Below, piece by piece: positions 9,894 to 31,339 of a stretch of 35,353 nt of DNA. This DNA is from a virus. The number at the start of each line of letters is the position of its first letter. The first letter of the stretch is position 1. The notes under the pieces are model-generated. The model saw only the letters and a list, made by a program, of their open reading frames with translations. It was not told the origin of the DNA and did no database searches. Location: IMG/VR virus record IMGVR_UViG_3300013018_000009, positions 1 to 35,353 of that record; one strand, written 5' to 3'. The translations under genes were made by a program, and so were the position numbers.

Positions 9894-10624
9894 TAGTTTT
9901 TTAGACTCTCTCCGATTTCGGAGGAATCATTTAATTTTTCTCTAATTTCATTTTCTAACTTTTCTGCTCTCTGTAATATAAATTTAATTAAGTCAACACT
10001 GATCCCTTTGATGTTGTCTTCATTTAATTCATTTCCGTTCACAGTCTCAACCATTTCCAAAATGAATTCATTTTCGTTTATATATTCTAAATGAACATTA
10101 GTTTTTACATCTTTTTCTTTGACTTTCTCTTGAATCCTTTTTCCAACCTTTTTATTCTCTTTTACATTTAAAATTTTATACCTAATTTTTATTGGTGGAG
10201 TCTCTTCATTAAAATTTAACTTAATATTTCTTTGAATCATATCGGTTAAAATGAACTCACCAACCTCCTCATCGGTTAAAGGTTGTGGTTCAAAACCTTT
10301 AAGGTAATCTTCGATATCCGAACTTAATTCTTTGTACTTATCTACTATGAAATTTATTTTAGCCGATGAGAAATTTTCTATTTCTTCACCAGTTTTGTTC
10401 TCGTTATCAAAAGCAACAAGACACCCCTTAACTATCTCGGTTGCTATGGTGTTGCTGACATAAATCCCGTTCTCTTTTTGTTCAAAATCATCAAAACTTT
10501 TTACAAATTCACCTTCTTTTTCCCAGGTGAATGAAGCTATTGTGAAACTAATATCACCAATTTTATGTTTTCTAATAACTCTAAAATTATTATGAAATTG
10601 CTTAATTTCTTCTTCTGTTAGCAT
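9893..10624 (-). CDS. Tail assembly protein, chaperone-position (gpG-like by location)
   Basis: 243 residues, acidic and helical, starting LTEEEIKQFHNNFRV after the initial M. The middle (about 115-170) has the pattern ADD-like EEVGEFILTDMIQRN and a lysine-rich turn; the C-terminus is coiled-coil-like (FILQRAEKLENEIREKL). The ATG overlaps the stop of the second tube-like gene (TAATG) and has AAAGGAGAG before it. Soluble, no membrane segment or signal. Its place between tube and tape measure suggests a chaperone that coats the tape measure during tail assembly, but no family signature is seen. Confidence 0.45.
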   Translation of the reverse strand: MLTEEEIKQFHNNFRVIRKHKIGDISFTIASFTWEKEGEFVKSFDDFEQKENGIYVSNTIATEIVKGCLVAFDNENKTGEEIENFSSAKINFIVDKYKELSSDIEDYLKGFEPQPLTDEEVGEFILTDMIQRNIKLNFNEETPPIKIRYKILNVKENKKVGKRIQEKVKEKDVKTNVHLEYINENEFILEMVETVNGNELNEDNIKGISVDLIKFILQRAEKLENEIREKLNDSSEIGESLKN

Positions 10625-16256: not shown

Positions 16257-17198
16257 TTATGCTGGGTTCCCGTCGTATAATTCTTCAGCACCAGAAAGCA
16301 CCATTTTACCTACAGCTTTGTAGTTACCTAAGTTGAATCCTGTGTAGTACCAGGAGCTCATTTTCAGTAGGTCTTTATCTTTCTGCATCCAGAATGTTGG
16401 ATCTCCCAGAGCAAAAGCACTTCCAAAAAACTGTGGTGAAGTTGCAACGTAAATAACACCTGGTTTAATTACATCACTGTTACTTGTAGTGATGAGTCTT
16501 TTTCCACCAATTTTAAGTTGCTCTACACCGTCTTCAATTACTCTAGTGATTAATCCCCCGACTTCTGTATGATTCCAGCTATAAGCATCGTTTAATGTTG
16601 AACGGTGCATAATAACTGTGTCTGACTTCAATCTTTCTGTATCAATCATATTGAAAAGTTTTGTGAAGTCATCCTTTTGGAAAGTAGAGTTAGTAGATGC
16701 AAGATAGTTACCATTAAGTTTAACAGCACTATTAACGATTTTGAAGAAGTAATCATCTTCCTGCTCCTGCATATCTAATACTACGTTCTGGCGAATGATG
16801 TCAGTGATAGGAATGCGGATGTTCTGCAATTCCATTTCATTTTTTTCAAATACTGGAGAAGCGTACTTTAAAAATGGTATGATGAATTTATCACCAGTTA
16901 TGTATTCTCCGGTAGGTTCACCTCTCATAGTCAGTTTCATAGCATAGGAGTCTGGCTCTCTATCAAGTAACATATACCCTGTATCAGAGTTATCTTGATC
17001 AATCTGATATCTTGGATCCTCAGTTGTTACTCTCTCAAAGCTATCTCCAAAGAAGCGTCTCATGACACCTTCTTCACGGAGTTTCATTCTTACATAGTTA
17101 CTACCAGCAACGCTAGCTTCTTTAATTTTGCTAGGGTCTTCAATAATACTCATAAAGTTTTCGTTGAATTGCTCAACGCTAATGTTATCGAAATTCAT
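16257..17198 (-). CDS. Major capsid protein (HK97 fold)
   Basis: 313 residues with the feel of an HK97-type capsid protein: a helical N-terminal arm (residues 1-28), then FFGDSFERVTTEDPRY, an extended-loop-like section near 70-100, a long central helix region, and a C-terminal strand GNYKAVGKMVLSGAEELYDG typical of the P/A-domain end. KIKEAS at residues 24-29 matches the K-x-A motif found throughout the head block and is the likely processing point, removing 28 residues. The start has AAAAGGAGGAATACATAA before the ATG. It follows the decoration candidate by 27 bp and is followed by a stable hairpin, as expected for the most abundant mRNA. Confidence 0.85.
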   Translation of the reverse strand: MNFDNISVEQFNENFMSIIEDPSKIKEASVAGSNYVRMKLREEGVMRRFFGDSFERVTTEDPRYQIDQDNSDTGYMLLDREPDSYAMKLTMRGEPTGEYITGDKFIIPFLKYASPVFEKNEMELQNIRIPITDIIRQNVVLDMQEQEDDYFFKIVNSAVKLNGNYLASTNSTFQKDDFTKLFNMIDTERLKSDTVIMHRSTLNDAYSWNHTEVGGLITRVIEDGVEQLKIGGKRLITTSNSDVIKPGVIYVATSPQFFGSAFALGDPTFWMQKDKDLLKMSSWYYTGFNLGNYKAVGKMVLSGAEELYDGNPA

Positions 17199-17225
17199 TT
17201 ATGTATTCCTCCTTTTAATTTTAAT

Positions 17226-17660
17226 TTAGTATAATTTTTGGATCTCAATATCTTCTGCGTTTACTGATAGAACTTCAGCAACAGCCATATCTTCTGTATC
17301 TCCACCGGCTGTATCTAATACAGCAAGTTTGCCAGGAGTTGCACCAATTTTCATCTTATCTCCAACACTTGGAGTTCCGTCAAAATGTTTAGTATAAGCA
17401 GTAACGTTACCTCGTGAAATGGTAACTCCGTCAATAGCTTCGTTATCATACTGGAACTTAAGTTCTAACATTGGGAAAGCAACTTTAGCGCCGGAAGGAG
17501 CGATTACAAACTTACCATTTGCATCCTCGGAAAGATATACCCCATCGTGTAATGCATCAGTATCTACTGTATCAGCAAGCTGCACAGTATCCCAGTTATT
17601 ATTTTCACTACCGAATCTTAATTTAAAGTTTTGATCTTCTCTTAACCATTTTGTTTCCAT
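17226..17660 (-). CDS. Capsid decoration / stabilisation protein candidate
   Basis: 144 residues, beta-rich, no cysteines, few basic residues. The centre reads GVTISRGNVTAYTKHFDGTP, then VGDKMKIGATPGKLAVLDTA and AVAEVLSVNAEDIEIQKLY, a small beta-barrel pattern like head decoration proteins (lambda gpD-like order: decoration gene directly upstream of the capsid gene). Strong AAAAGGAGGAAATTTAA site before the ATG. It lacks the K-x-A motif, as expected for a protein added outside after maturation. Family not proved. Confidence 0.6.
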   Translation of the reverse strand: METKWLREDQNFKLRFGSENNNWDTVQLADTVDTDALHDGVYLSEDANGKFVIAPSGAKVAFPMLELKFQYDNEAIDGVTISRGNVTAYTKHFDGTPSVGDKMKIGATPGKLAVLDTAGGDTEDMAVAEVLSVNAEDIEIQKLY

Positions 17661-17682
17661 TTAAATTTCCTCCTTTTAAATT

Positions 17683-18453
17683 TTATGAATTATTCATTAC
17701 GAAATCAAAAATGGGGTTCCCTGAATTAGCAGATGCTTTCTTGGAAAGATCCCCTACATCTAATAAAGACTTTTCAGCGACCTTATCCATAACTCTCATT
17801 TCGACTTCGAATTCCTCTTCATCCATTGAAGCGAATTTTTCTAACTGTTCAGGGATCTCATCAACAGAGATTTGTTCCATCTTTGCCATTTTAATGAGTT
17901 TATTAAAAGCTTTATCCCTTTGTTCATTCTGTCTTTTAATCGAAGCAATCTTTTCTAAACTTTCTTCCTTCTCTCCTTTCAGTTGTTTGATAACTGATGC
18001 GGATTTTTTTAAATCGGAAGCAGTTTTAGTTAGTAATTGGGAGATGTTTGCCACCTTTTCATTTCCCCCTTTCTTGAATTCTTTCAATACTTTTTGTTTT
18101 TCTTTCTTTCGTTTGTTATCAATATGAGCCTTCAACCCTCCTGCAGCAAGCATTGGTATTGCCATTTTTTTTGCAGTTGATAAAGGTTTAGCTGCTGAAT
18201 AATCTTTTGCCTTTTTAAAAGTGTCGCCACCTAAAGCAACATTTTTAGTAGTCTCGAAAGCTTTTCCTATACCAGGAGCATTACTTAAGGTTTTACCGAG
18301 TGAACGATTTGCATTAGAAATTCCTTTTACTTTATTTAAAACTTGTTGATTGACTTTCCTTTTAGCAATATCTTTAGGTAGTTTATGTTTAAATTGGTTA
18401 TACTTTGTTGCCCCAGCCTTTAAAGCACTACCTAATATGCTAGAGTTCCCCAT
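17683..18453 (-). CDS. Scaffold-like head protein with many K-x-A sites
   Basis: 256 residues, lysine-rich, helical. The first 100 residues are basic and glycine/alanine-rich; the rest is coiled-coil-like. K-x-A motifs recur: NEKVA, LTKTA, LEKIA, LIKMA, LEKFA, MDKVA and others, eight by eye, spaced through residues 125-245. A protein just before the capsid genes, helical and full of putative protease sites, behaves like a scaffold that is destroyed on maturation. The ATG at 18453 overlaps the upstream gene by 14 bp and has no clear ribosome binding site, so translation is probably coupled. Confidence 0.6.
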   Translation of the reverse strand: MGNSSILGSALKAGATKYNQFKHKLPKDIAKRKVNQQVLNKVKGISNANRSLGKTLSNAPGIGKAFETTKNVALGGDTFKKAKDYSAAKPLSTAKKMAIPMLAAGGLKAHIDNKRKKEKQKVLKEFKKGGNEKVANISQLLTKTASDLKKSASVIKQLKGEKEESLEKIASIKRQNEQRDKAFNKLIKMAKMEQISVDEIPEQLEKFASMDEEEFEVEMRVMDKVAEKSLLDVGDLSKKASANSGNPIFDFVMNNS

Positions 18454-18838
18454 CTAAGATTTGGCTCGCAATCTTATCTGATAGTTCTTCTACCATTTCT
18501 TCATTACCTTCTTGGCTGAGGAGTTTTTTTCTAAGTTTATTATATTGCTCGTTGCGGACGCCATTTTTAAGTCCGTTCATAGCAATTTCTTTTAGGCGTT
18601 GTTTTGACTCATCACTGCTCTCTACAAGCATTTTTCCTCCGACACCCTGTTCATTTATTTTATCGACATCTTCCTTGTTTGCTTCTTTATTAAGTCCGCT
18701 GACAACATTGTCTATCTTGGAAGCATTCTTTTCTAATTCAGCAACAAAATTATCAACATCGATATCTTTTTCTTCTACGGAGGCGGTTTTTTCTTTTTTA
18801 ATCTGTTTCCACAATTCATCTATTCTTTGTTCGTCCAT
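18440..18838 (-). CDS. Small acidic scaffold-like head protein
   Basis: 132 residues, helical and charged, with K-x-A sites KEKTAS, LEKNAS, NKEAN and SDKIAS. Start ATG follows AAGGAGGGGGAG. It is preceded by the 155-aa acidic protein and followed by the 256-aa scaffold-like protein with an overlap. Short, acidic, coiled-coil proteins in the protease-to-capsid interval are usually scaffold or prohead core. No specific family recognised. Confidence 0.55.
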   Translation of the reverse strand: MDEQRIDELWKQIKKEKTASVEEKDIDVDNFVAELEKNASKIDNVVSGLNKEANKEDVDKINEQGVGGKMLVESSDESKQRLKEIAMNGLKNGVRNEQYNKLRKKLLSQEGNEEMVEELSDKIASQILDGEL

Positions 18839-18851
18839 TTACTCCCCCTCC

Positions 18852-19319
18852 TTAAACGTTATTTACTTCTTCTCCCTGGTCTTCGAAAAACATTTGAATC
18901 TCTTTAGGAAGTCCATCTAATGTTTCATACTTCTGAAAGTTATTATCTCTAACAACTCTCGGATTAGAAAGCAGTTGGAAAGAAGCTAACTTTTCAAAAA
19001 GCTCTTTCTTTTCTGGTGAAGAAAACTTACCAGAAATAGAAGCAACTTTCTCTTTTTGAGCAGAAGATAACTTTCCTCTTAACTCTTCTTCTACTTCTTC
19101 ACTTTCTTCATCACCATCATCGGCTTCGTTATCTTCTGTTCCTTCAATCATTTCTTCTGGATCTTTTTCAGCTTTTGGTTTAGTTTTAGCTTTAGCAACC
19201 TTTTCTAACGCCCTTGCCATAACTTCTTCAGCTAGAGCATCAACTTCTTCAGAAGCGTTCTTTTCCATTTCTTCTTCTTCAGCAATTTCATTTACTAAAT
19301 CTTCAAGTGTACCAGCCAT
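18852..19319 (-). CDS. Acidic prohead core / scaffold protein candidate
   Basis: 155 residues with a strongly acidic centre (about 60-85, rich in E and D) flanked by helices. K-x-A sites are MEKNAS, LEKVAK, KEKVAS and FEKLAS. It lies 12 bp after the protease candidate. Protease, then acidic scaffold, then capsid is the classical order in HK97- and T4-type heads. The C-terminal 40 residues (SNPRVVRDNNFQKYETLDGL) lack such sites and may be the capsid-contacting part. Start ATG has TAAGGAGGTGCC before it. Confidence 0.6.
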   Translation of the reverse strand: MAGTLEDLVNEIAEEEEMEKNASEEVDALAEEVMARALEKVAKAKTKPKAEKDPEEMIEGTEDNEADDGDEESEEVEEELRGKLSSAQKEKVASISGKFSSPEKKELFEKLASFQLLSNPRVVRDNNFQKYETLDGLPKEIQMFFEDQGEEVNNV

Positions 19320-19330
19320 AAGGCACCTCC

Positions 19331-21112
19331 TTAGTTAATAATCTTTTTAATAGCAGTTCCGGCCAGCATATCAACACCTCTACCCAATGATTGCATCGGG
19401 GAAGCGGATGTAACAAATATATTTCCAATATTATTTAATGTATCATATTTTTTGTCAATCTCTTTATATCTATTATACAACTGATCGGTATCATTAATCA
19501 AATCTGAAGTAGATTTTTTTGGTGATACCATTCGGGCCGCTTCTTTTGTTATAACATTGTCATAATTCATTTGACTTAAAGCTTTTTTAATGGCAATCCA
19601 ATCATCTTTTGAATTAGTGGCTCCGATACCTAACATAGCAACTAGGTTGGGGTGCTCTTCAAGGAACTTCATTAACTTGGCATCACTGTCAAAACGACCC
19701 GCGATATCCGATGCTAAATAAGCAGCAGGTACTCCTGCAAAAACTCGACCACCTAAATTAGATGCGGTCTTTTCAAATTCCTTACCTGCTCTTTTCATCT
19801 CACCTAAACCTTTGACGGCGCCAACACTACCGGCGGTCATTACAGGTAATAACCACGGGTGATCTTTGATCTTCTTATCAAGACCTTCTGCATTGTAATC
19901 GGGGACTTGATTTAAGTATCTGTTGTATAAAAGACTGCCAGCAATTATTCCAGGTGTTGCCAGTTGTTCTGGTCTGAATCTCTTTTGTCTGACTTCTTTG
20001 GGTTCTTCTGCTGCCATCTTAATGAGTCTTGGATATAAATACTCTTTGATTGCTGACCTCTCTTTAACATAAGGTATTCCAACTTTAAAGACGTCAAAGT
20101 CTAAATCACCAAATAACGGGTTAAACTTTTTGTTGACTTCTCTTTCTGGAATATCTATATTAAGGATAATGTCGTCAAAGTCATCCGGGTTATGCCCCAA
20201 CTTATTTAAATATATCCTTTGGAATTCTTCCGGTTTTAAAATGATACCTAAAGTTAAAAGAGAAGTTAATACATCATCAATAGGTTTTTCAGAATAAAAA
20301 TCCAAAACCTTATCGGAAATGTTTTTTTCTCTTTCTTTGATATCAGAAAAACCCCTCATTAATTTAGCCGCAATCTGTCCGGCATCATTGGAGATAGTTT
20401 CACCTGGGATCTCTTTTTCAATATCCGCTTTCTTTTTAAAGCCATTCAATACAGAAGCGACCTTTTTTAATGACTTAGCGGTCCTGTCCGCACCAATGTA
20501 GACAAAACTGATATCAAAAAATCTCGGTTTCTTATTTATCATATAAACTTTTCTGCCGTCAGGCAATACTTCACCTTTATGATATTTTATATGATCACAG
20601 TAATCGTTGGTAGTCTTGGCGACATTACCACAGATACTGCAAACATCATATGGAACCTTACATCCCATTGAAACATCCCACATCTTATCATTGTCGATGT
20701 CTGATGCAATCTTAGGGGCTTTATCCCTATCAATCCTAACAATAAGTTCTACCCTATGCATTCTCGGATTGAAGTGGGCAAACATTATATCCCCTTTAGA
20801 TTTTTTCGGGTCTTTATTTTTATGATGAGTAAATACATATCCGAATTCTTCGAAGGTCTTATAGTGATCTAATATTTCTTGTTCTTCAAAATAATCAGAG
20901 TTAACATTGTCTCCCCAAATCTCACCACTGCTTACAGCAGAAACTAAAACGTAAACGGAGTCTGGGTCAGACTCGATATTATCTTCAATGTAGTTTTTAA
21001 TCTCATCAGAGATTGTACCAGAAGCCACTTTTTCAAGAGAATCAGAAGGGTCGATCTCCTGTAGTGAAAATTCTTCATCGTTATAATTAAAGTGTATTGT
21101 TTTTTCTATCAA
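19331..21112 (-). CDS. Prohead maturation protease candidate with zinc-finger insert and long C-terminal extension
   Basis: 593 residues, TTG start after AAAGGAGGGGTCAAC. Residues 53-205 look like a herpes/HK97-type prohead serine protease: VLVSAVSSGEIWGDNVNSDY, then THHK with H96/H97 as histidine candidates, VELIVRID, and WDVSMGCKV with S148 as the likely nucleophile (V-S-M-G is the usual context). A cysteine insert follows S148 (C158-x2-C161 and C172-x-H174), probably zinc-binding. The remaining 380 residues are unlike a protease. They carry K-x-A sites (FKKKA, LIKMA, FEKTA, TKEA) and the basic block EEPKEVRQKRFRPEQLA at 369-385. LEKVA30 and LKKVA219 bracket the protease domain, suggesting self-processing. 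Protease identity is by motif and gene order. Confidence 0.65.
   Translation of the reverse strand: MIEKTIHFNYNDEEFSLQEIDPSDSLEKVASGTISDEIKNYIEDNIESDPDSVYVLVSAVSSGEIWGDNVNSDYFEEQEILDHYKTFEEFGYVFTHHKNKDPKKSKGDIMFAHFNPRMHRVELIVRIDRDKAPKIASDIDNDKMWDVSMGCKVPYDVCSICGNVAKTTNDYCDHIKYHKGEVLPDGRKVYMINKKPRFFDISFVYIGADRTAKSLKKVASVLNGFKKKADIEKEIPGETISNDAGQIAAKLMRGFSDIKEREKNISDKVLDFYSEKPIDDVLTSLLTLGIILKPEEFQRIYLNKLGHNPDDFDDIILNIDIPEREVNKKFNPLFGDLDFDVFKVGIPYVKERSAIKEYLYPRLIKMAAEEPKEVRQKRFRPEQLATPGIIAGSLLYNRYLNQVPDYNAEGLDKKIKDHPWLLPVMTAGSVGAVKGLGEMKRAGKEFEKTASNLGGRVFAGVPAAYLASDIAGRFDSDAKLMKFLEEHPNLVAMLGIGATNSKDDWIAIKKALSQMNYDNVITKEAARMVSPKKSTSDLINDTDQLYNRYKEIDKKYDTLNNIGNIFVTSASPMQSLGRGVDMLAGTAIKKIIN
19959..20008. 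repeat. 50-bp direct repeat, copy 2 (in protease candidate gene)
   Basis: Partner of 15930-15979, 49 of 50 bases identical, same reading frame. The flanks diverge at once on both sides, so the duplicated unit is short. Confidence 0.9.
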
Positions 21113-21126
21113 GTTGACCCCTCCTT

Positions 21127-22023
21127 TTATCCATATACTTTTTGTTTAGCTTCTTCGAAAGTCATGTTACTATCTTTCATTGTTTTGGCTAAGTTAACAA
21201 TTTGGTTTTTATAAGCCACATTCTCTCTGGCCATATCATATCCTGCAGTACCTAAGTTCTCAGATACATCTCTAGCAGAGTTAAGAATGTTGTTAACACC
21301 AGAAATTATTCTGTCTTCAGCACCGTTATCTCTTCTATTGAAACTATCCTGGATAGAAGTGACATCTTTAATATTATTAAAGTGCATTGTTCCAGTTCCA
21401 CCAGCTTCTATTTGTTTCATGAACGATTTGACAGCAATAGGATGCTTGGCTAAATCAGGAGCAGCATCATAAAAGAATTTGAACTGTTGCTTTGACTCTG
21501 GATTATCTTCAAATTCCGGGTACCTTCTAATGAAAGCTTCCCAATATTTTTCTTCCTGGTTATTCAATTTGTTTCTAACAGCCTGGTATAAATCTCCGCC
21601 ACCTTTTGCCCCTAAAGAAACTGCACCGGCTCCAGCCATACTCATACCTAACTTCTTGGCGATATCCTTAATCATTTCTCTATCCTCAGGGGATATACTC
21701 ATCATTGATTTAAGTTTATCTTTAGCACTGGCTTTTTTACCCAACATACCTCCGAAACGAGCTTCATCATCTAATTTCTGGTTCATTCTTTCATAATAAC
21801 CTTTTTCAGATTTAAGCTTGTCTCTTTGATATTTATTCATTCTGGCATTTTGGATACCTTTTACAAGTAAACCGGCACCCCCAGCCGCTGCTGCACCTTT
21901 AAGTCCTTTTTTCACTGAGGGTTCATTCTTTTTAATATAATTGACGGTGGCATCTGTCGCATCATTTAATCTGCGGAAAAGTTTTTCGGCTTCTTCGTTT
22001 TTTAAATTAAAATCAAAAGCCAT
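21127..22023 (-). CDS. Head-block protein with one glycine-rich membrane-like segment
   Basis: 298 residues. A basic helical N-terminus leads to a glycine/alanine segment (GLKGAAAAGGAGLLVKGI, about 40-57); a second follows at about 125-145 (LGMSMAGAGAVSLGAKGGG). Between them is GKKAS, the only strict K-x-A site. The C-terminal half is an ordered helical domain with YWEAFIRRYPEFEDNPES and FFYDAAPDLAKHPIAVKSF. It directly precedes the protease gene. It has fewer processing sites than its neighbours, so it may persist in the virion. Portal identity was considered and not supported: it is too short and has no wing/stem pattern. Confidence 0.5.
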   Translation of the reverse strand: MAFDFNLKNEEAEKLFRRLNDATDATVNYIKKNEPSVKKGLKGAAAAGGAGLLVKGIQNARMNKYQRDKLKSEKGYYERMNQKLDDEARFGGMLGKKASAKDKLKSMMSISPEDREMIKDIAKKLGMSMAGAGAVSLGAKGGGDLYQAVRNKLNNQEEKYWEAFIRRYPEFEDNPESKQQFKFFYDAAPDLAKHPIAVKSFMKQIEAGGTGTMHFNNIKDVTSIQDSFNRRDNGAEDRIISGVNNILNSARDVSENLGTAGYDMARENVAYKNQIVNLAKTMKDSNMTFEEAKQKVYG

Positions 22024-22034
22024 TTAGCCACCTC

Positions 22035-22769
22035 CTATTCGATTTCTTCTAATAACTTTTTAGCTTCCTCATCGGACATTCCTTCGATTGTGCTAACTAA
22101 ATTACCTAGATCTTCGTTTTCTTCTTGCTCTTCCAATTCTGAAATTTTACCTTTAAGTTCTGGGGAAGACTGCGCAGCTTCCTTTAAAATCTCGCCAGCT
22201 TCCTCTTCTGTGATGGAATCCAGGAAGTTATTAACTTCTGCTTCTTTAATCATCTCTTCGTTATATACACCAATAGCTTCATCTAACACTTCTGGCTCGA
22301 TACCTGTTACAGAAGCAATCTTTTGTAAGCCGTCAATGTAGAGTTCTTCAGCTGATGCTTGTTTTTCTTTTTTCTTACCTAAAGCTTTATCTGGTCTTAG
22401 TGCGCCCATAACTCCGCCAAAAGCGGCGCCTTGTCCGGCTAATCTTTTTAATTGATTGGCCGAAACATTGCCACCGGTCAACTTAGTACCTAATGCACCT
22501 AATCCAGCTGCACCAGCACCTGTAGAAGCTGCACCAACTAGAGCACCTTTACCTCTTTCTTTTAAAGCTTGTTTCTGTTCATCTGATAATTTGTCAGCGA
22601 GGGCGGCACCTCCGTAACCTAAACCTAATCCAGCAGCTGCAGCAGTGGCTATTTCCTTTTTAGAAAGTTTGCTATTTATGGGGGATCCCCCTCCTGGTAA
22701 AAGACCCGCAACATTCGGGTTAGCAGCAACTTTTTCCATACCTAATTCTGTAATTCTATTAAAATCCAT
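22035..22769 (-). CDS. Tagged internal head protein (15-residue LGMEKVA tag)
   Basis: 244 residues. Residues 1-15 (MDFNRITELGMEKVA) are the shared tag, ending at A15. A glycine-zipper region follows (about 45-125, with AAAAGLGLGYGGAALAD and GAGAAGLGALGTKLTGG). The C-terminal 110 residues are acidic and helical, with KEKQAS, LQKIAS, IKEAE and LKEAA sites. After processing the product would be a short, glycine-zipper peptide, as expected for an internal head protein or a membrane-active ejection protein. Start ATG has AAGGAGGAATACATAA before it. Confidence 0.6.
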   Translation of the reverse strand: MDFNRITELGMEKVAANPNVAGLLPGGGSPINSKLSKKEIATAAAAGLGLGYGGAALADKLSDEQKQALKERGKGALVGAASTGAGAAGLGALGTKLTGGNVSANQLKRLAGQGAAFGGVMGALRPDKALGKKKEKQASAEELYIDGLQKIASVTGIEPEVLDEAIGVYNEEMIKEAEVNNFLDSITEEEAGEILKEAAQSSPELKGKISELEEQEENEDLGNLVSTIEGMSDEEAKKLLEEIE

Positions 22770-22789
22770 TTATGTATTCCTCCTTAAAA

Positions 22790-22818
22790 AGAATTTATGC
22801 GAGAGTTACCCCTCGCAT
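22790..22818 (-). terminator. Weak hairpin between two internal head protein genes
   Basis: ATGCGAG (22797-22803) pairs with CTCGCAT (22812-22818), 7 bp with an 8-nt loop. On the minus strand it is followed by AAATTC and then TTTTT, so the U-run is 6 nt late. An attenuator or mRNA processing site is more likely than full termination. It occupies most of the only sizeable gap (57 bp) in this block. Confidence 0.5.
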
Positions 22819-22826
22819 TTATTTAA

Positions 22827-23468
22827 TTACTCAGTTAAAGCGTCAATGCCAGCTTCAAATAATGCATCAAATGTTTCTTCATCTAATCCATAAGCTGCAG
22901 CTGTTTTTTGCTTTTCTTTTCTCTTTTTATTAGCATAAGCACCAGCAGCACCTAATCCAGCTAATCCAGCGGCACCTAATCCAGCTTTACCTTTGTTGTT
23001 TTTGAGAGCTTGTAGAGCAGAACTACCAGCGGAACCCAAAGCACCTGCACCAGCTTTAGCAGCGTCGCCAGTAAAGCCGGCTACATTTTTAGCACCTCTA
23101 GCAACACTTCTTCCACCTCTTGCTGCCATATTACCTGGATTTTTAAGAGCTTCTTTTAATGCTGCTTTTGTTCCTACACTTTCAGGAGCATTTTTAACAA
23201 AGTCATAAACACCTTTGCCTGCAACGCCAGCACCTGCAGCACCAGCACCTCCACCAATCAATGCAGCTAATTGTTTCTTAGACATTCCGCCATTTTCTTG
23301 CTCTTCAGCAGCCTTTTCTAAAAAGTCATGCAGTTCCATAGCATCTACACCATGTACTCCAGCTACCTTTTCTAAAGAATCAGCATAATCATTAAGACCT
23401 TCCTCATAAGCAACCTTTTCTAAACCTGCTTCTAATACCATATTGATTTCTTCTTGTGTTAAATTCAT
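22827..23468 (-). CDS. Internal head protein, paralogue of the 23489-23938 product
   Basis: 213 residues. N-terminal 55 residues are nearly identical to the next gene upstream: GLEKVA20, SLEKVA36 and FLEKAA54 spaced 16-18 residues apart. The middle (about 68-180) is a long glycine/alanine-rich stretch (IGGGAGAAGAGVAGKG, then GAAGLAGLGAAGAYANKK). The C-terminus repeats the paralogue's ending, FEAGIDALTE against FEKGLEALTE. If all three N-terminal sites are cut, short peptides of about 16 residues are released. Start ATG has AAGGAGGAATACAAA before it. Confidence 0.55.
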   Translation of the reverse strand: MNLTQEEINMVLEAGLEKVAYEEGLNDYADSLEKVAGVHGVDAMELHDFLEKAAEEQENGGMSKKQLAALIGGGAGAAGAGVAGKGVYDFVKNAPESVGTKAALKEALKNPGNMAARGGRSVARGAKNVAGFTGDAAKAGAGALGSAGSSALQALKNNKGKAGLGAAGLAGLGAAGAYANKKRKEKQKTAAAYGLDEETFDALFEAGIDALTE

Positions 23469-23488
23469 TTTGTATTCCTCCTTGTTTT

Positions 23489-23938
23489 TTATTCAGTTAA
23501 AGCTTCTAAACCTTTTTCAAATAAATAATTTAAAGTGTTGTCATCGATAGATGCTTCTTTTTTCTTTTTCTTCGGTTGGAGTGCACCTGCCCCCGCCCCT
23601 ATTAAACTCCCTGCAAGAGAGCCACCTGCTCCAGTTATTGAACTTGCACCGATAGCTTCGCCAACATTAAAATCTGAATCTTTTAAAGCTGAAACTAACA
23701 TTGGAACTCCGCCAGCAACTCCGCCAGCAATTCCACCTCTCCGACCCCATTTTTTCCATTTAGGATCTTCAACATCTTCTTCGGCAACCTTCTCTAAAAA
23801 GTCATGTAAATCCACAGCGTCTACACCATGTACCCCAGCAACTTTTTCTAAAGAGTCAGCATAGTCATTAAGTCCTTCTTCATAAGCAATCTTTTCCAAA
23901 CCAGCATTTAAAATCATATCTAATTCTTCCTGAGTCAT
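23489..23938 (-). CDS. Short internal head protein, paralogue of the 22827-23468 product
   Basis: 149 residues with the same build as its neighbour, but a shorter glycine-rich core (about 68-120: GGIAGGVAGGVPMLVSAL, then AGGSLAGSLIGAGAGAL). Sites are GLEKIA18, SLEKVA34, FLEKVA52 and KKKEA129. The duplication is visible in DNA: 23795-23940 matches 23297-23465 with mainly third-base changes. Start ATG has AAAAGGAGGTACAT before it. Function unknown; likely virion-internal. Confidence 0.55.
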   Translation of the reverse strand: MTQEELDMILNAGLEKIAYEEGLNDYADSLEKVAGVHGVDAVDLHDFLEKVAEEDVEDPKWKKWGRRGGIAGGVAGGVPMLVSALKDSDFNVGEAIGASSITGAGGSLAGSLIGAGAGALQPKKKKKEASIDDNTLNYLFEKGLEALTE

Positions 23939-23950
23939 ATGTACCTCCTT

Positions 23951-24793
23951 TTAAGAGTATAATCTAGTTCCGGGGTGCTTTGACTTTTTCACCTCGAAAG
24001 GATTATCTGTTTTTTTATTCTTTATCTTATCATAATGCTTTTTACTTTTGCTTTTGGTCTCGCCTACAAGTGATGCAACTTCCATAGTTTTAAGTGGGTG
24101 TTTAGCCATCTGCAGGGCAATACCAGCAGCTTTTTCTAAACGTTCGTTCAATTCATCTAATCTCGACTTAATTTTACCATAGCTTGCAACCTTTTGCAAA
24201 AACTCATTTTCCTTATCTACAAGAAAATTCACCTCTGATATGTCAGGAATATTTTCTTCTGATGCAGACTTAATTAATTCGTCTGGTGCACCAGCTTTTT
24301 TAATGGAATAAGCAACTATCTTAGGGTTGTTATTTTGCAACTTGGATTTAATCAACTTCACTAAGTGTGGTTTCTTTTCCATTAATTTGACTTCTAGATC
24401 TGATTTTTCCCTCTGCATATTGCCTATCAATGATTTTAGGTCTTCTATATTAATTGTTTCTTTTTCTTCCTCTTCATCATTAATTGTATAATAGGAATCA
24501 TCAAAGCTCAAATCCGGACTTTCAGTTTTCACATCGGTCTCGATTTGGATGCCTTCAATGTTTTTAGGATCAGCAACATCGAACTCTACTGTCTTATCAT
24601 CTGTAGCCTTAAATAACTTAAGGAATACCTTGACATTAGCCTGTTGGGCGATTCTTGCAATTTCTTCATTATTTAGTTCCTCCCGTTTAGCTATTTCCGC
24701 TATTATATCCTCCAAAAGATTTTGATTGTGATCCTCTCCCACTTTTCGAAAATAAGTTTGAACCGCTTCTTTGCTCAAGTTTTGGTAGTTCAT
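23951..24793 (-). CDS. Head-block helical protein with K-x-A sites
   Basis: 280 residues, acidic to basic along its length, helical, without the glycine zipper of its neighbours. An N-terminal site SKEA10 is followed by LQKVAS near residue 203 and LEKAAG near 220, with IKKAG and IKSAS in between. The C-terminal 45 residues are very basic (KSKSKKHYDKIKNKKTDN) and could contact DNA. The start ATG has GGGGGT 6 nt upstream, inside the 84-codon ORF it overlaps by 107 bp. Confidence 0.55.
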   Translation of the reverse strand: MNYQNLSKEAVQTYFRKVGEDHNQNLLEDIIAEIAKREELNNEEIARIAQQANVKVFLKLFKATDDKTVEFDVADPKNIEGIQIETDVKTESPDLSFDDSYYTINDEEEEKETINIEDLKSLIGNMQREKSDLEVKLMEKKPHLVKLIKSKLQNNNPKIVAYSIKKAGAPDELIKSASEENIPDISEVNFLVDKENEFLQKVASYGKIKSRLDELNERLEKAAGIALQMAKHPLKTMEVASLVGETKSKSKKHYDKIKNKKTDNPFEVKKSKHPGTRLYS

Positions 24794-24941
24794 TTTTTAC
24801 CCCCTTTTTGTATTCTGATTTTATTTTAACATTTTTTGGTTTAAATTTGAAATCTGGAAACTTATTTTTAACCTTTTCAATTGGTTTGATTTCATTAGCC
24901 AATTTTTCCATTCCTAAATTTGTGAGATAATCTTTGTTCAT
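24687..24941 (-). CDS. Short tagged head protein overlapping the next gene
   Basis: 84 codons. Residues 1-15 (MNKDYLTNLGMEKLA) are the shared tag with A15, after a strong AAGGAGGTAACC site. The remainder is basic (KNKFPDFKFKPKNVKIK) and then low-complexity serine/glycine where it overlaps the next gene in another frame. The 107-bp overlap is by far the longest in the window. It may be a real tag plus basic peptide, with the last 30 codons accidental; or a frameshift near the A5G5TA6 run may join it to the 280-aa gene. Confidence 0.5.
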   Translation of the reverse strand: MNKDYLTNLGMEKLANEIKPIEKVKNKFPDFKFKPKNVKIKSEYKKGVKNELPKLEQRSGSNLFSKSGRGSQSKSFGGYNSGNS

Positions 24942-24951
24942 GGTTACCTCC

Positions 24952-25635
24952 TTAATACAATAAAGTATTACCTTGTCTTAGGTATCGTTCTCTATCTTCG
25001 GTTTGTAACTTTAACTTATCATGGAGCTTTTGTTTTTTGGTGTATTCCGGTTTTAATTTCTTCTGCAATTTCTTACCTAAACCAGCACCCAATGTTCCAC
25101 CAGAAAGTGCCCCGATTCCAGTTGATAATGGAGTGTTTAGATTTTTTAGTTTGGATAAACCAATACCTGCCAACCCACCAGCTACACCACCACCTAATGT
25201 TGCTCTCGTGGGTAATTTATTATTCCTTTCAACTCTCTTTTTGTATTCTTTATCTTCTGGGGTTTCGTTTAACTTATTTTGTAACTGTTTTAGTTTATTA
25301 TCTTTATCTACAGGGGTCTCATATTTACCATAAGCTCTAGACATTAGATATTTATCTTGACGATGAGGAACATTTTTCAACCAGTCGTCATTGTTGATTT
25401 TTTTATCAACCTCTTTCCACTGAGGAAGAATTTCTTCTTTCCACTTTTTAAAATCCTCTAATGGTTGTTCATCACCCATTTCCTGAACTACCCTTTTTAA
25501 ATGATCTTCTTCATCAGTGATGTCACTTTGATAAGGCCATTTATGGTGATTGGGATTTAATAGTCCTCCAGCTGCCGAACCATTAGCATCCGCTATTTTC
25601 TCCATACCTAAATTCATTACCACTTCTTTTATCAT
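24952..25635 (-). CDS. Tagged internal head protein sharing a module with the ferritin fusion
   Basis: 227 residues. The tag MIKEVVMNLGMEKIA ends at A15, which supports the ATG at 25635. A helical module follows (QPLEDFKKWKEEILPQW near 55-75), then a glycine zipper (GGVAGGLAGIGLSKLKN, about 145-185), and the end DRERYLRQGNTLLY. The helical module, zipper and ending match the C-terminal part of the EncFtn fusion (26251-27300). This makes it the untethered, tagged version of that module. Soluble N-terminal part, membrane-like zipper. Confidence 0.6.
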   Translation of the reverse strand: MIKEVVMNLGMEKIADANGSAAGGLLNPNHHKWPYQSDITDEEDHLKRVVQEMGDEQPLEDFKKWKEEILPQWKEVDKKINNDDWLKNVPHRQDKYLMSRAYGKYETPVDKDNKLKQLQNKLNETPEDKEYKKRVERNNKLPTRATLGGGVAGGLAGIGLSKLKNLNTPLSTGIGALSGGTLGAGLGKKLQKKLKPEYTKKQKLHDKLKLQTEDRERYLRQGNTLLY

Positions 25636-25636
25636 T

Positions 25637-26239
25637 TTAAATTTTCCCCCTTAACTTCTTCCCAATTAAATTACCAACCACAGCTCCACCTAATGTACCT
25701 AATGCTTTCTTTTTCTTAGAATGTTTCTTTTCGTCATCGACTAACTTATTAGATGCAAGATAACCGCCAATACCACCGAGTGCTGTACCAGGAGTGGCTA
25801 TTGATTTGAGGTTTTGTTTTCTTTTATTCCTTTTTAAAGCATCCTGTAATCTTGCTCGCTGCCCATCTCTGGCATAAGAATTAGTTGCAGAACCAGTACC
25901 ATAAGTAGTTTTCTTTTCCGTTCCCGCCGGAATAAACCCGAATAATTTTTTCTTTGTGGTTTTAACACCTTTAGGAAGTTTCTTTTTAGACATCGATGCT
26001 GCTCTGCTGGCAGAATTAACATCAGATTTAACTTTGTTTCTGATGTAATCATTCATCTTTGCCTGCTGACCCGGTTTTAAATTGTTAAGTTCAATGCTTT
26101 TCTCACCGAGTATCTTTCTGACTTGATCTGGATTGTTTTTCTTAAACTTTTTCATGTATTCTTTTTCAGCTCGGTTTAGGGCCAATTTTTCTAAAGAGCC
26201 TTCTTTGATCAACTGCACTAACTTTTCTTTATTTGTCAT
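25637..26239 (-). CDS. Basic internal head protein with LEKLA propeptide
   Basis: 200 residues, strongly basic (runs such as MKKFKKNNPDQVRKI and KKLPKGVKTTKKKLFG). The N-terminus MTNKEKLVQLIKEGSLEKLA ends in the shared motif at A20, slightly longer than the 15-residue tag. The C-terminus has a short glycine zipper (GTALGGIGGYLASNK and GTLGGAVVGNLIGKKL). High lysine content fits DNA binding in the head. Start ATG has AGGAGGGTAAT before it. Family not recognised. Confidence 0.55.
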   Translation of the reverse strand: MTNKEKLVQLIKEGSLEKLALNRAEKEYMKKFKKNNPDQVRKILGEKSIELNNLKPGQQAKMNDYIRNKVKSDVNSASRAASMSKKKLPKGVKTTKKKLFGFIPAGTEKKTTYGTGSATNSYARDGQRARLQDALKRNKRKQNLKSIATPGTALGGIGGYLASNKLVDDEKKHSKKKKALGTLGGAVVGNLIGKKLRGKI

Positions 26240-26250
26240 ATTACCCTCCT

Positions 26251-27300
26251 TTAATAGTCTAAGTTGTGGCCTTGTCTTAAGTATCTTTCTCTGTCATAAA
26301 GGTTATTTTCTCTTTTATTGACTACTCCTTTTTTATTGTACTTCGCTTTATCTTTTACAAATTTTCTAGCGATGGGACTAGTTGCTAATCCTCCAACCAC
26401 TCCCGTTGCTAAACCACCCACGCTACCGTAAAGTGCTCCAGTACCTGCTCCTGCTAAACCCTTTAATATTTTACCGGGGGTAGATTTACCTTTGGAAGAA
26501 CCTACATAGCCACCAATTCCTAAACCGGCTAACGTCCCGAGGCCAGCACCACCTATACCTGTATTACTTATGTATTCACTTGAATGTTGTGATTTGCCTT
26601 CGGGTAACCATTTGTCATTGGGATATTCTTTTCTTTTAGCTCTTTCTAATTTCTTTTTTAATCCTTGGTATTTACCATCACTGCGTACGGGGTTTTTATG
26701 GTTTTCTTTAATATATTCTTGAAGTTTTTGTTGCAGTTTCCTCTGCCTTTCCCCTTCTGCTTGTTCGATTAAACTCTCAAATTTTTGAACCTTCGGATCT
26801 GACAAAACTTCCTTTTGAAAATTATCCCACCTAGGTTTAATAGTGTTTTTCCATTTATTAAATTTATCTAACTCGCCTTGGTTGATATAATCATTTTCTA
26901 ATTCTCGTTTCAACCCAGCTTCTTCGGTTTCTACATCGGTTAAGTATTCAGTTTCACCCCAATGAGTTTGGTGTGCCAACTTTTCTCTCAACGCCGCTTC
27001 CTTTTTAAGACCATCTTCATTATATTCTGCCATCAGTTCTCCATCCTGGTATAGATATTCATCAATCATATCAGACCACACTGGAGAAATTCTTCTAAGG
27101 TATTCAATACCTATTAATGCATGTTCAATTTCTTCGTGAGCATTATGTAAAACAAACTTTCTTACTAAAGGATTATCTGTCGCTGCTGCTCTTTGGTAAT
27201 ACCAATCGACTGCTTCTATTTCTTCGATTATGGATTGTAGTATTCTGTGTATATCCATATCTTCATTTGAAAGTAATTCATGTGGTTCATGGTAATTCAT
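26251..27300 (-). CDS. Encapsulated-ferritin (EncFtn) domain fused to a phage head-protein module
   Basis: 349 residues. Residues 1-95 closely resemble bacterial encapsulated ferritins: YHEPHELL, then EEIEAVDWYYQRA and HNAHEEIEHALIGIEYLRR. From memory of the Rhodospirillum rubrum EncFtn, ligands E32, E62 and H65 correspond here to E27, E57 and H60, with W33/Y34 and entry-site E26/E29 also kept. Such proteins oxidise ferrous iron and work inside encapsulin shells. Residues 99-110 hold KKEA and REKLA sites, which would cut the ferritin domain free. The C-terminal 240 residues (FNKWKNTIKPRW, glycine zipper, DRERYLRQGHNLDY) match the tagged 227-aa protein. Start ATG abuts the helicase stop after AAAGGAGGAAAA. 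The ferritin call is firm; packaging in the head is inference. Confidence 0.88.
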   Translation of the reverse strand: MNYHEPHELLSNEDMDIHRILQSIIEEIEAVDWYYQRAAATDNPLVRKFVLHNAHEEIEHALIGIEYLRRISPVWSDMIDEYLYQDGELMAEYNEDGLKKEAALREKLAHQTHWGETEYLTDVETEEAGLKRELENDYINQGELDKFNKWKNTIKPRWDNFQKEVLSDPKVQKFESLIEQAEGERQRKLQQKLQEYIKENHKNPVRSDGKYQGLKKKLERAKRKEYPNDKWLPEGKSQHSSEYISNTGIGGAGLGTLAGLGIGGYVGSSKGKSTPGKILKGLAGAGTGALYGSVGGLATGVVGGLATSPIARKFVKDKAKYNKKGVVNKRENNLYDRERYLRQGHNLDY

Positions 27301-28824
27301 TTATTTTCCTCCTTTTGCCAACTTCTCCATGCCTAAATCTATCATTGCTTGTTTTTTCATGTTTCCTCCCATTTGATCGTACACCTGTGATTGTAATGCT
27401 TTTTTCTTTTCGGCAACACTGTCTATCCATTCTTCAACAGAGCGGTTGGGTTTTCTAATGGAACTTAAAAACTTCTTCTCGGGTTCTACTGCTAAATACT
27501 TTTTAATATTTACTTTATCGGCTTTCGAGTTTGCTCTGACCCCTCTACCAATCGCCTGTTTGGTTACTTCTGGGTTCCAGTTAGGGTCAAAAATAAACTC
27601 TTTATCTACATTAGGTAATGATATTCCTTCCTTACCTGTAGGTGATGTAACGAAAGCTTTTGTTTTATTTTTCTTAAAGTTTTCAATCTGTTCATCTTTA
27701 TCTTTCTTTCTCATACCACCGGATATTCTAGATGACGAAACACCTTTTGATTTCAAGGCATCTTGGATAATATCTGCTCCATGCTGGTTATAGTTAGAAT
27801 AAATCATAGACCCAAATTCGCTGTCGTCGTCTTTTAAATCTTCTAATAACCTCTGGGCTTTGGCCGATATTTCGTGACCTTTATCTCCTTTAAGTATAGC
27901 ACCTGGATTGTTTGATGCAACTCTGGCATTTGCTATTGAGCCAAAGAAAGACACGCTATCTCTCTTATCTGGAACAATGTCTCTTTTAACAGCCTTCCTT
28001 ACTGGCCCGGGCAAATCATTCCAGGCATACTTGTAGGCTTTCATTTGTTCTTTAGTCATTGGTACCCTAACTTTTTCTTCTTCAACCTCTGGTAAATCTT
28101 GATCTCCTCGTTCATAATCGAAATAATTTTGGAGATATTCCCTAACTTCATCATCGGGGTCAAATCTTTCTCCTACTGTTTGTTTCTTACCTAAACCTAT
28201 AAAACTTAAAGGACCGAACTTTTTAGTTTCCGGTTTAACATACTTTTTATTAAATTCCGTTTGGTTGTATTTATCTTCACCTTCGATTAAATTAATCAAA
28301 GATGCAACATCACCGGGAGCATTATTCATTGGGGATGCCGTTAAGAAAGCTTTATTTTCCATATTAGGCGACACTTCTTTAATAGCTTTATAAAGGTTTG
28401 TGTTTTGATTTCTAGCGTTGTGTGCCTCATCTACTACCATTGAATTGGAATTTGCCGAATACTTCTCAGGATCTTTTGAAAACAAAGAGTTAGACACTAT
28501 TACATAATCGGCGTTGGGGTCAACTTCTTCACTTCCGGAGTCGATAACTTGAACCGAACTGTCAGTAAATTTATTTATTCCTTCTTTTTCAAAATTTGTT
28601 TTTAAACTTGCTGGAACAACAACTAAAGTCTGTCCAGGTGATTTTTCTTTTAATTTTTCCATAGCGGCTATACTGGTTAAGGTTTTACCTGTACCAGTGC
28701 CATGGGCCACAACCAAAGAATTGTTATCTAAAAGTTTATTGACGGCTCGTTTTTGATAATCTCTTAAATTGACATCATCTTTTAATGCTGCTTCTTTTAA
28801 TAACTTCTTTAATACCTTCTTCAT
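27301..28824 (-). CDS. SNF2/superfamily 2 DNA helicase-translocase with a C-terminal head tag
   Basis: 507 residues from the ATG at 28824 (GGAGGTG 5 nt upstream, stop of amylase overlapping as TGATG). Walker A GTGTGKT is at about 42-48, DEAH at 132-135, FLTASPMNN follows as motif III, and the second RecA-like domain ends with SPTGKEGISLPNVD and QAIGRGVRANS (motifs V and VI). This is a SNF2-like ATP-dependent DNA translocase. The N-terminus KKLLKEAALKDD carries a K-x-A site. The last 19 residues are MKKQAMIDLGMEKLAKGGK, a complete copy of the 15-residue tag plus KGGK. It is likely packaged in the head and may act on phage DNA during or after ejection; that is inference. Tight coupling with both neighbours. 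Confidence 0.85.
   Translation of the reverse strand: MKKVLKKLLKEAALKDDVNLRDYQKRAVNKLLDNNSLVVAHGTGTGKTLTSIAAMEKLKEKSPGQTLVVVPASLKTNFEKEGINKFTDSSVQVIDSGSEEVDPNADYVIVSNSLFSKDPEKYSANSNSMVVDEAHNARNQNTNLYKAIKEVSPNMENKAFLTASPMNNAPGDVASLINLIEGEDKYNQTEFNKKYVKPETKKFGPLSFIGLGKKQTVGERFDPDDEVREYLQNYFDYERGDQDLPEVEEEKVRVPMTKEQMKAYKYAWNDLPGPVRKAVKRDIVPDKRDSVSFFGSIANARVASNNPGAILKGDKGHEISAKAQRLLEDLKDDDSEFGSMIYSNYNQHGADIIQDALKSKGVSSSRISGGMRKKDKDEQIENFKKNKTKAFVTSPTGKEGISLPNVDKEFIFDPNWNPEVTKQAIGRGVRANSKADKVNIKKYLAVEPEKKFLSSIRKPNRSVEEWIDSVAEKKKALQSQVYDQMGGNMKKQAMIDLGMEKLAKGGK
27316..27360 (-). other. Tag-coding segment with its own internal start and ribosome binding site
   Basis: Within the helicase gene, the tag codons (27360-27316) begin with ATG and are preceded by GGGAGGAAAC (27370-27361), a good ribosome binding site at proper distance. 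Reading from here gives a 19-residue peptide ending at the helicase stop. The next codon after that stop is the ATG of the ferritin fusion, in the same frame. So one TAA separates tag from ferritin. Confidence 0.6.
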
Positions 28825-29885
28825 CAATTCACCTCCAGCTTATAGGATTGTCTTTCAACAGTTACTTCATTGAATGTTCTTTCATCTAAACTATTATTAA
28901 TGTATAAAGTATAATTACCTCTTTCGGCGACATATAAGTCGTTGTCAGTGTGTGCGACAACAGGATATTCTTCGGCAAAATATTTTCTAGGTTTAATCAA
29001 TTCATCTATTTTATCTTTGAGTTCGTATTCAAAGTAATCTTCCCAGAAGACTACCGCTGGCTCTTTCTGGAACAAGATATAAGCATACGCCAGTTCTTTA
29101 TTATTGATTATGGGTTCACTTCTTTCGACGTCATGGTTGGAAACAAAATTAACCCTATTAGAGCTGGTCCCTAATGCTTTCATTGAAGATTTTGGATTCA
29201 TACACATTTCCTTCAATTTATAAAACAATGGAAAATTAAACAACGGTAGATCGATGTAATCAGTTAACGCCTCTAGTAAAACATCGTTTCCACTCCAGTA
29301 TTCCCCAACCATAAAATTATTGAATGAGTTAAAAAAATCTTTAACGAAATCCCAACGCATTTCCTTTAAATTGTCTAACCTAAAATTATCAAAACCGATA
29401 TCCTTTAACCAAGTGGCCCATTCGATAAGACCTTTTTTCATATATTCATTGTCATTATAATAACAAATAGTTTCACCAAAAGAACTCCTGGTGTTGCACC
29501 CTCCACAATCTCTGCAGAAATGTTTATAATCTTTTTGAAACAACGAGCTGTCAAACTTAGTGTATGTATCTTTATCTAAACTTGGGTTATATTCTTTTTT
29601 ACCTCCAAGCATATGCCCCATCACAAGATCAGCCATAACGTTGATTCCTTCATAGTGGAATTTATCAATTAAATCTACCAGTTCTTCTTTGGTGCCAAAT
29701 TTAGAATCGAGATTATAATGGTCCTTTATATCATAGCCCATCGAGTCATCACCGGCCATCCCCCTTGAAGGTGGAGGTAACCAGATATCAGTAAACCCTT
29801 TTTCGGCGATCGCGCCAGTTAAAAATGATAATTCATTGTACCAGTCAGAAGGGCAATCCCAATAAAATCCCTGTAGTATTAGCAT
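28824..29885 (-). CDS. GH13 alpha-amylase-family glycoside hydrolase
   Basis: 353 residues from the ATG at 29885 (a GTG at 29888 overlaps the previous stop; no clear ribosome binding site, so coupled). The order of GH13 blocks is intact: LILQGFYWDCPSDWYNEL at the start, DIWLPPPSRGMAG, region I ADLVMGH (G replaces the usual N), region II FRLDN with nucleophile D171, region III MVGEYW with acid E195, region IV VSNHD with D252, and a short beta C-domain (LYVAERGNYTLYINNS). It hydrolyses alpha-1,4-glucan bonds in glycogen or starch. No signal peptide, so it acts inside the cell or the virion. A cysteine group (C124, C127, C130, C141) sits in the small B-domain. No head tag. A metabolic gene within a phage head operon is unusual. 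Confidence 0.9.
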   Translation of the reverse strand: MLILQGFYWDCPSDWYNELSFLTGAIAEKGFTDIWLPPPSRGMAGDDSMGYDIKDHYNLDSKFGTKEELVDLIDKFHYEGINVMADLVMGHMLGGKKEYNPSLDKDTYTKFDSSLFQKDYKHFCRDCGGCNTRSSFGETICYYNDNEYMKKGLIEWATWLKDIGFDNFRLDNLKEMRWDFVKDFFNSFNNFMVGEYWSGNDVLLEALTDYIDLPLFNFPLFYKLKEMCMNPKSSMKALGTSSNRVNFVSNHDVERSEPIINNKELAYAYILFQKEPAVVFWEDYFEYELKDKIDELIKPRKYFAEEYPVVAHTDNDLYVAERGNYTLYINNSLDERTFNEVTVERQSYKLEVN

Positions 29886-29887
29886 CA

Positions 29888-31339
29888 CTAACCACGATCG
29901 TTTTCATATTCTCTGATTATTCGCTTTAATTTTTCTGTCATCTCATCATCTCTCCTTGGAGAAAATGTAGTTATAACCGCTTCGTTTTCTCCCTTTAAGG
30001 CGACATTGGCTTTCTTCATTCTTCTTGCTAATTCACCAATAGTTCCTCCGCCAGCTGCACCTAATAAAGTGTTTCTCGTTTTGTTATCTTTATTTTTTGT
30101 GAGTTTGTTGGCGGCAAAACCTCCAATACCCGCACCTGCTAATCCAGGGGCATATCTTTTAGCATCTGATTTAAAATTATGTTTCCGGGTTCCGAATTCT
30201 CCGGTGCGTTTGTTTTTCTTTAGGTCGATATAGTCAGCTGCTAGTTTTTCGATGGTGGCCTCTTTTTCTTTACCTCTAACTTTATCTCCTAATGTAGCTC
30301 CTAAAGCCCCGCCAACCATTAAACCGCTACCACCTAATGTAACATTACTCATTAAGTGGTCTTTTTTTCGACTTTTCATTAATTTTTTTATACTCTTTTC
30401 AACTTCTTTTTTATATTCAGGGTGATTTAATTCTTTTGCTTGTTGGCTCATTCCTTTAAAAGTATTAAAATAAGGTCTCATTGTTTTATCGTATTTTTGG
30501 TTTAATTTCTTAGCTCCTACTAACCCTAATCCTGCACCGGCTGCTGCACCAACCCCTAAACCAATTTTGGTAGAATTGTCTTTAACCCACTTTTTAGTTT
30601 TGTCTAATTTTGATTCTTCTTCAGCAATCTTGTTCATGCCAAGTTGTACAAAGGCATTCTTTTCTTTGTTTTTAATTTCATCGCCCGCAGCAGCTCCGAA
30701 TAAACCGCCTGCACCTGCTCCGAGACCACCCAAGACGGCATAATTTTTTAAGTCATCTTTTTTCCTTTTTTTAATCATATCTTTCATATAACCCTCAGTC
30801 TTTTTGTTTAATTTTTGACCTTCTCTTCCTAAATTGTTGCCTATATCTCTCAATTTATCATAGGCTTCAAAATAAGGTTTATCGAGATTAGTCAGTGTTT
30901 TGTTTAATTTCTTAGCTCCCGCTAACCCTAATCCTGCACCGGCTGCTGCACCAACCCCTAAACCAATTTTGGTAGAATTGTCTTTAACCCACTTTTTGGT
31001 TTTGTCTAGTCTTGATTCTTCTTCAGCAATTTTGTTCATGCCAAGTTGTACAAAGGCGTTCTTTTCTTTTGGTTTCTTTAAAGCTCCGACACCGGCACCT
31101 AAAATTCCGCCACCGGCACTACCTATAGCACCACCCATAATTCCCGAATGGACCATTTTATTTAACATAAATGGGTCATCAGTATCTGAATTTATTGCCG
31201 ACAATAAAGCAGCGGCAGGTGCTAAACTTTTCATCCCTACATCAGAACCTTTCAAACCATATTCTACCGCATTTTGCAATCTGGGGTGCGACTTTCTTTC
31301 CGCCTCTTTTATCAAAGTCTTCAATATTTCTTTTTTCAT
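29888..31339 (-). CDS. Polyprotein-like head protein with tandem tags and glycine zippers
   Basis: 483 residues. The N-terminus MKKEILKTLIKEA ends in a K-x-A site at 13. Two copies of a 56-residue unit follow, each opening with the tag KEKNAFVQLGMNKIA, then KKWVKDNSTKIGLGVGAAAG and a glycine zipper. Linkers are lysine-rich helices. A further double site, KEKEAT/IEKLAAD, begins the last third (YAPGLAGAGIGGFAANKL). If every site is cut, the protein yields four or so zipper-containing fragments. Membrane-active ejection proteins or internal core proteins are plausible roles. Start ATG has ATAGGAGGATTTAAA; it follows the terminase by 11 bp. Confidence 0.6.
   Translation of the reverse strand: MKKEILKTLIKEAERKSHPRLQNAVEYGLKGSDVGMKSLAPAAALLSAINSDTDDPFMLNKMVHSGIMGGAIGSAGGGILGAGVGALKKPKEKNAFVQLGMNKIAEEESRLDKTKKWVKDNSTKIGLGVGAAAGAGLGLAGAKKLNKTLTNLDKPYFEAYDKLRDIGNNLGREGQKLNKKTEGYMKDMIKKRKKDDLKNYAVLGGLGAGAGGLFGAAAGDEIKNKEKNAFVQLGMNKIAEEESKLDKTKKWVKDNSTKIGLGVGAAAGAGLGLVGAKKLNQKYDKTMRPYFNTFKGMSQQAKELNHPEYKKEVEKSIKKLMKSRKKDHLMSNVTLGGSGLMVGGALGATLGDKVRGKEKEATIEKLAADYIDLKKNKRTGEFGTRKHNFKSDAKRYAPGLAGAGIGGFAANKLTKNKDNKTRNTLLGAAGGGTIGELARRMKKANVALKGENEAVITTFSPRRDDEMTEKLKRIIREYENDRG
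30500..30667. repeat. 168-bp tandem coding repeat, copy 2
   Basis: Nearly identical to 30902-31069, offset 402 bp (134 codons), in frame. It encodes a tag plus helix plus glycine zipper. Most differences are silent or conservative (R to K, A to V), so the duplication is fairly recent. Confidence 0.9.
30902..31069. repeat. 168-bp tandem coding repeat, copy 1
   Basis: Partner of 30500-30667. Includes the tag codons 31069-31025 and the sequence encoding GLGVGAAAGAGLGL. Confidence 0.9.

Follow-up and report, generated by a model that had tools for sequence, protein, structure and literature searches.

A ferritin of the encapsulin-cargo type (EncFtn) fused to a phage module in the head-gene block of a probable Halanaerobium myovirus

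The open reading frame (ORF) 26251-27300(-) is located in the window, i.e., the whole 35,353-nt stretch of the IMG/VR virus record IMGVR_UViG_3300013018_000009 that was analyzed, and it raises the question of what an encapsulin-cargo type ferritin (EncFtn) would be doing among the head genes of a phage. The original prediction held that the phage head carries a ferroxidase. Its premises, namely the EncFtn identity, the head operon and the fusion to a tagged module, were borne out, while the packaging itself was made more likely by a motif of the head proteins and by proteomic data for a related phage. We consider it fairly probable that the product is a head-packaged, protease-released internal protein with ferroxidase activity, for which we infer packaging, cleavage, assembly, activity and benefit from sequence. 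The gene and its parts are as follows:

27308..27316 (-), Shine-Dalgarno-like AAAAGGAGG ahead of the EncFtn start, within the 3' end of the helicase gene (sequence)
26251-27300 (-), EncFtn-fusion ORF, 349 aa, ATG start, directly 3' of the helicase stop
27016..27300 (-), EncFtn domain, residues 1-95, with ferroxidase centre ligands E27, E57 and H60 (Pfam, PDB, AlphaFold2, Foldseek)
26974..27006 (-), KKEA (residues 99-102) and EKLA (residues 106-109), probable prohead-protease/tag motifs at the domain-module border (motif; predicted cleavage)
26254..26973 (-), C-terminal module, residues 110-349 (98% identity with a tagged protein that stands alone in the relative L002; model)

The N-terminal part of the ORF was confirmed as a true EncFtn domain. 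Residues 2-86 match the Pfam family EncFtn-like (PF22277) along the entire length of the profile (2.5e-28, 98 bits, cut-off 27), and solved EncFtn structures in the PDB are matched as well (7oe2, 1.5e-22; 5n5f, 3e-22; Rhodospirillum rubrum 5da5, 1.2e-19). The AlphaFold2 prediction, made for a single chain, has pLDDT values >90 across residues 1-80, and its two-helix EncFtn fold was matched by Foldseek to 5n5f (TMt 0.91, root-mean-square deviation 1.2 Å). In a gap-free alignment with an offset of 5, the phage residues E26, E27, E29, W33, Y34, E57 and H60 correspond to positions 31, 32, 34, 38, 39, 62 and 65 of the R. rubrum protein; the ferroxidase ligands (E32, E62 and H65 in R. rubrum) are retained as E27, E57 and H60, together with the entry-site glutamates E26 and E29 and the W33/Y34 pair. 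The EncFtn identity and the ligand numbering put forward in the original prediction are correct, and two of the checks that it proposed, a profile search and a structure prediction, both pointed to EncFtn.

The features by which an encapsulin cargo is recognized (the score against TIGR04535, a targeting peptide and an adjoining encapsulin gene) were not found for the phage protein. Against the TIGR04535 profile of encapsulin cargo ferritins it scored 97.9 bits, below the cut-off of 125, with profile positions 102-114 unmatched, and it has no C-terminal encapsulin targeting peptide of the LGxGS type. No match to encapsulin (PF04454) was found in the three phage records carrying the fused EncFtn, all of which are fragments.

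The EncFtn gene is placed between the genes of the terminase and the major capsid protein (MCP), with the tail sheath beyond the latter, as judged from PHROG matches. Its neighbors are given below; the motif mentioned there is [EK]KxA, and the phages used for comparison are two distant relatives, Salmonella phage Arash and Vibrio phage D69:

31351..32940 (-), terminase large subunit (phrog_675, 5.6e-73)
29888..31339 (-), glycine-zipper protein with motif copies (family search, motif count)
28824..29888 (-), GH13 alpha-amylase-like gene within the head block, without the [EK]KxA motif, resembling Halanaerobium DNA (family and DNA searches)
27301..28827 (-), SNF2-type helicase homologous to Arash gp217, the motif occurring close to either end (family search, Arash comparison)
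22035..26239 (-), series of small proteins of the head block, the majority bearing GMEKxA, GLEKxA or SLEKLA as a motif copy at the N-terminus (ORFs, motif)
19331..21112 (-), head maturation protease, motif copies at residues 27-30 and 216-219 (phrog_18299, 1.5e-11)
17683..18453 (-), probable scaffold/core protein with many copies of the motif (position and motifs only)
16257..17198 (-), MCP with KEA at residues 26-28, also in Arash and D69 (phrog_2522, 3e-13)

The head context claimed earlier is thus supported by PHROG matches to terminase, maturation protease and major head protein, and the scaffold is a probable assignment.

The [EK]KxA pattern was picked by reading the head genes of the window, and because it had been chosen on these data, it was then applied unaltered to Arash and D69. 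In the head block of the window it occurs 31 times (5.4 expected from residue shuffles) and in the tail block once (1.6 expected), while the head genes of Arash contain 14 copies (1.8 expected) and those of D69 contain 18 (2.4 expected), with four copies in the other genes of each phage (2.1 and 3.2 expected, respectively). Given this enrichment in head genes across three distantly related phages (window 16257-31339; L090; L106), the motif is read as a probable prohead-protease site. Moreover, KEA is found near the N-terminus of all three MCPs, and the protease carries motif copies on either side of its conserved domain (window, Arash comparison); over 187 aa it shares 43% identity with Arash gp222. 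In Arash virions, mass spectrometry detected gp217, the homologue of the helicase adjoining the EncFtn gene, and most of the head-block proteins, although the authors of that study considered that abundant enzymes might be carried over into virion preparations (PMC10585845). The motif may help to tell which proteins are packaged in phages of this group.

Two copies of the motif, whose role is proposed from the enrichment in the three phages, are located at the border of the EncFtn domain. Since these likely protease sites fall exactly between the domain and the C-terminal module, the fusion may not remain in one piece. The module itself consists of a helical part (residues 116-225) followed by a glycine-rich part, with the AlphaFold2 model being of low confidence past residue 230. 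In the relative L002 it is encoded by a separate gene, the product of which is 98% identical and starts with its own tag, MTNKEKLVQLIKEGSLEKLA, in agreement with the earlier claim that this module occurs elsewhere with a capsid tag. In both L002 and the third record, L003, the EncFtn domain runs via KKEALVKIGMEKIS into a module other than that of the window; a tagged module is consequently found downstream of the EncFtn domain in both arrangements.

The EncFtn domains of the window and L002 differ in 18.5% of bases and 11% of residues, with no difference at a ligand. Using the NG86 method only, we obtained a nonsynonymous rate (dN) of 0.075 and a synonymous rate (dS) of 1.8, the latter near saturation, and a dN/dS of about 0.04. 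The stretches flanking the domain are 98-99% identical between the close relatives, and most differences between the two alleles, each joined to a different tagged module, are synonymous; this EncFtn is thus a diverged allele kept by purifying selection within a mosaic stretch of the operon.

The best cellular relatives of the phage domain are EncFtns of Halanaerobium, salt-loving anaerobic bacteria, at ~55% identity. In a tree of 77 domains, with few columns for that many rows, both phage sequences are placed on a long branch within a 16-row clade (98/93) consisting mainly of Halanaerobiaceae; constraining the phage and Halanaerobiales sequences to one clade was not rejected (p-AU 0.21), which is no proof of such a clade. 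At the DNA level, the EncFtn region is 69-75% identical to Halanaerobium over about 110-190 bp and the neighboring amylase gene 64-67% over about 900 bp, and these were the only two gene-level matches, all others being short and weak. Since both genes match Halanaerobium DNA, this genus is the likely host, and the phage is probably a large myovirus infecting it. The bacterial EncFtns end in LGLGSMRGGE-type encapsulin targeting peptides; an encapsulin is present in all seven Halanaerobium genomes tested, and in the four loci read the ORF directly after EncFtn encodes 266-268 aa, in agreement in size and place with the encapsulin match.

Taken together, these data would fit a sequence of events in which the phage captured the encapsulin-cargo ferritin of its host and turned it into an internal head protein. 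The targeting peptide was lost and the domain joined to a phage module bearing the head tag/cleavage motif [EK]KxA; the fusion would then be drawn into the prohead core during assembly and cut by the prohead protease at KKEA/EKLA, freeing the EncFtn domain inside the head. The freed domain may assemble as a ferroxidase ring and oxidize Fe2+ either within the particle or, once ejected, within the cell, and so reduce Fenton damage to phage DNA. The head-packaged ferroxidase is favored because the EncFtn profile, structure and fold matches come with all ligands in a gene of the terminase-to-MCP block, because the cellular targeting peptide and encapsulin are missing while the head motif is enriched, because Arash virions hold the homologous helicase and most head-block proteins, and because the domain precedes a tagged module in two arrangements at a low dN/dS. 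Several points weigh against it. There is little room in a DNA-filled head. The published virion data are for Arash homologues of neighboring proteins, an EncFtn homologue is absent from Arash, the motif was selected on the window before its trial in other phages, and the tag is internal, whereas T4 internal proteins have N-terminal targeting sequences. Furthermore, the R. rubrum EncFtn without its shell oxidizes iron and does not store it (PMC5012862).

As R. rubrum EncFtn needs a shell to store iron, it is rather doubtful that the capsid of the phage serves as an iron compartment in the manner of an encapsulin, in which EncFtn would oxidize iron, the HK97-type head would hold the product, and the virion would carry iron with its DNA protected. 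The EncFtn ring might alternatively be an oligomerization platform for the glycine-rich module, acting as an ejection or membrane-conduit protein, with iron oxidation secondary: EncFtn does form a metal-dependent ring (PMC5012862), and several head-block proteins near the gene are glycine-zipper proteins, but every catalytic ligand is retained under purifying selection and the probable cleavage sites would part the ring from the module, which leaves this a minor possibility. We also regard as unlikely that the protein works in the infected cell, where it would be an auxiliary ferroxidase or interfere with the EncFtn-encapsulin system of the host; the likely host group has the homologous pair and host-derived genes are frequent in phages (the adjacent amylase being another), yet the fusion to a head-motif module in both alleles and the position in the head block would then have no reason. 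That the gene is a decaying or chance insertion without function, as its long branch and the mosaic locus could indicate, is very improbable, since it is carried by three separate contigs with ligands, start and ribosome-binding site intact, and since the mainly synonymous substitutions already contradict such a reading.

The phage protein shares the fold, ferroxidase ligands, entry-site glutamates and W/Y pair with the encapsulated ferritins (R. rubrum Rru_A0973; Haliangium ochraceum 5n5f/7oe2; PF22277, TIGR04535), but it lacks their targeting peptide and, within its records, an encapsulin gene, is joined to a phage module of 240 residues, and has its gene in a head block. In the ferritin-like/encapsulin fusions a ferritin-like domain is likewise tied to a particle of the HK97 lineage; however, it is joined there to the encapsulin shell itself, whereas in the phage it is joined to an internal module, with the virus capsid as the presumed shell (PMC8346489). 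The T4 internal and SPN3US ejection proteins also belong to the head and have propeptides, which the prohead protease cleaves at a short motif, but these propeptides are N-terminal (PMC7411985), while in the window phage a different motif follows the cargo domain. Arash has the helicase, protease, core and MCP order and [EK]KxA in common with the window, but no EncFtn between the helicase and head genes, and its proteins are only 25-43% identical (PMC10585845). Phage capsids are thought to be the ancestors of encapsulins (PMC8346489); in the window phage, an encapsulin cargo appears to have moved the opposite way, into a phage head operon, with one targeting signal exchanged for another. The case allows the passage of cargo between the two types of HK97-fold particle to be tested, and one may ask whether phages of anaerobes have iron or an oxidant defence in their virions.

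No EncFtn was matched in GenBank phages by tblastn, and in BFVD there was no match at E<=0.001, the best being a rubrerythrin-domain protein of Pyrobaculum filamentous virus 1. In the titles and passages of the open-licence literature seen, no report of EncFtn in a phage head was found. Scans of IMG/VR with two alignments revealed EncFtn only in the lineage of the window and in L006, an unrelated contig with an unfused copy at its end (9995-10282), which is 40% identical to the window domain and may be cellular flank. Within the same mosaic region as the EncFtn gene, the product of 29888-31339(-) has 483 aa, compared with 259 aa in L002 and 263 aa in L003, through internal duplication or module gain. 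Finally, in the close relative L101 (3542-10114), three ORFs beside the tail genes have CxxxCxxC-type starts, by which they resemble radical SAM proteins.
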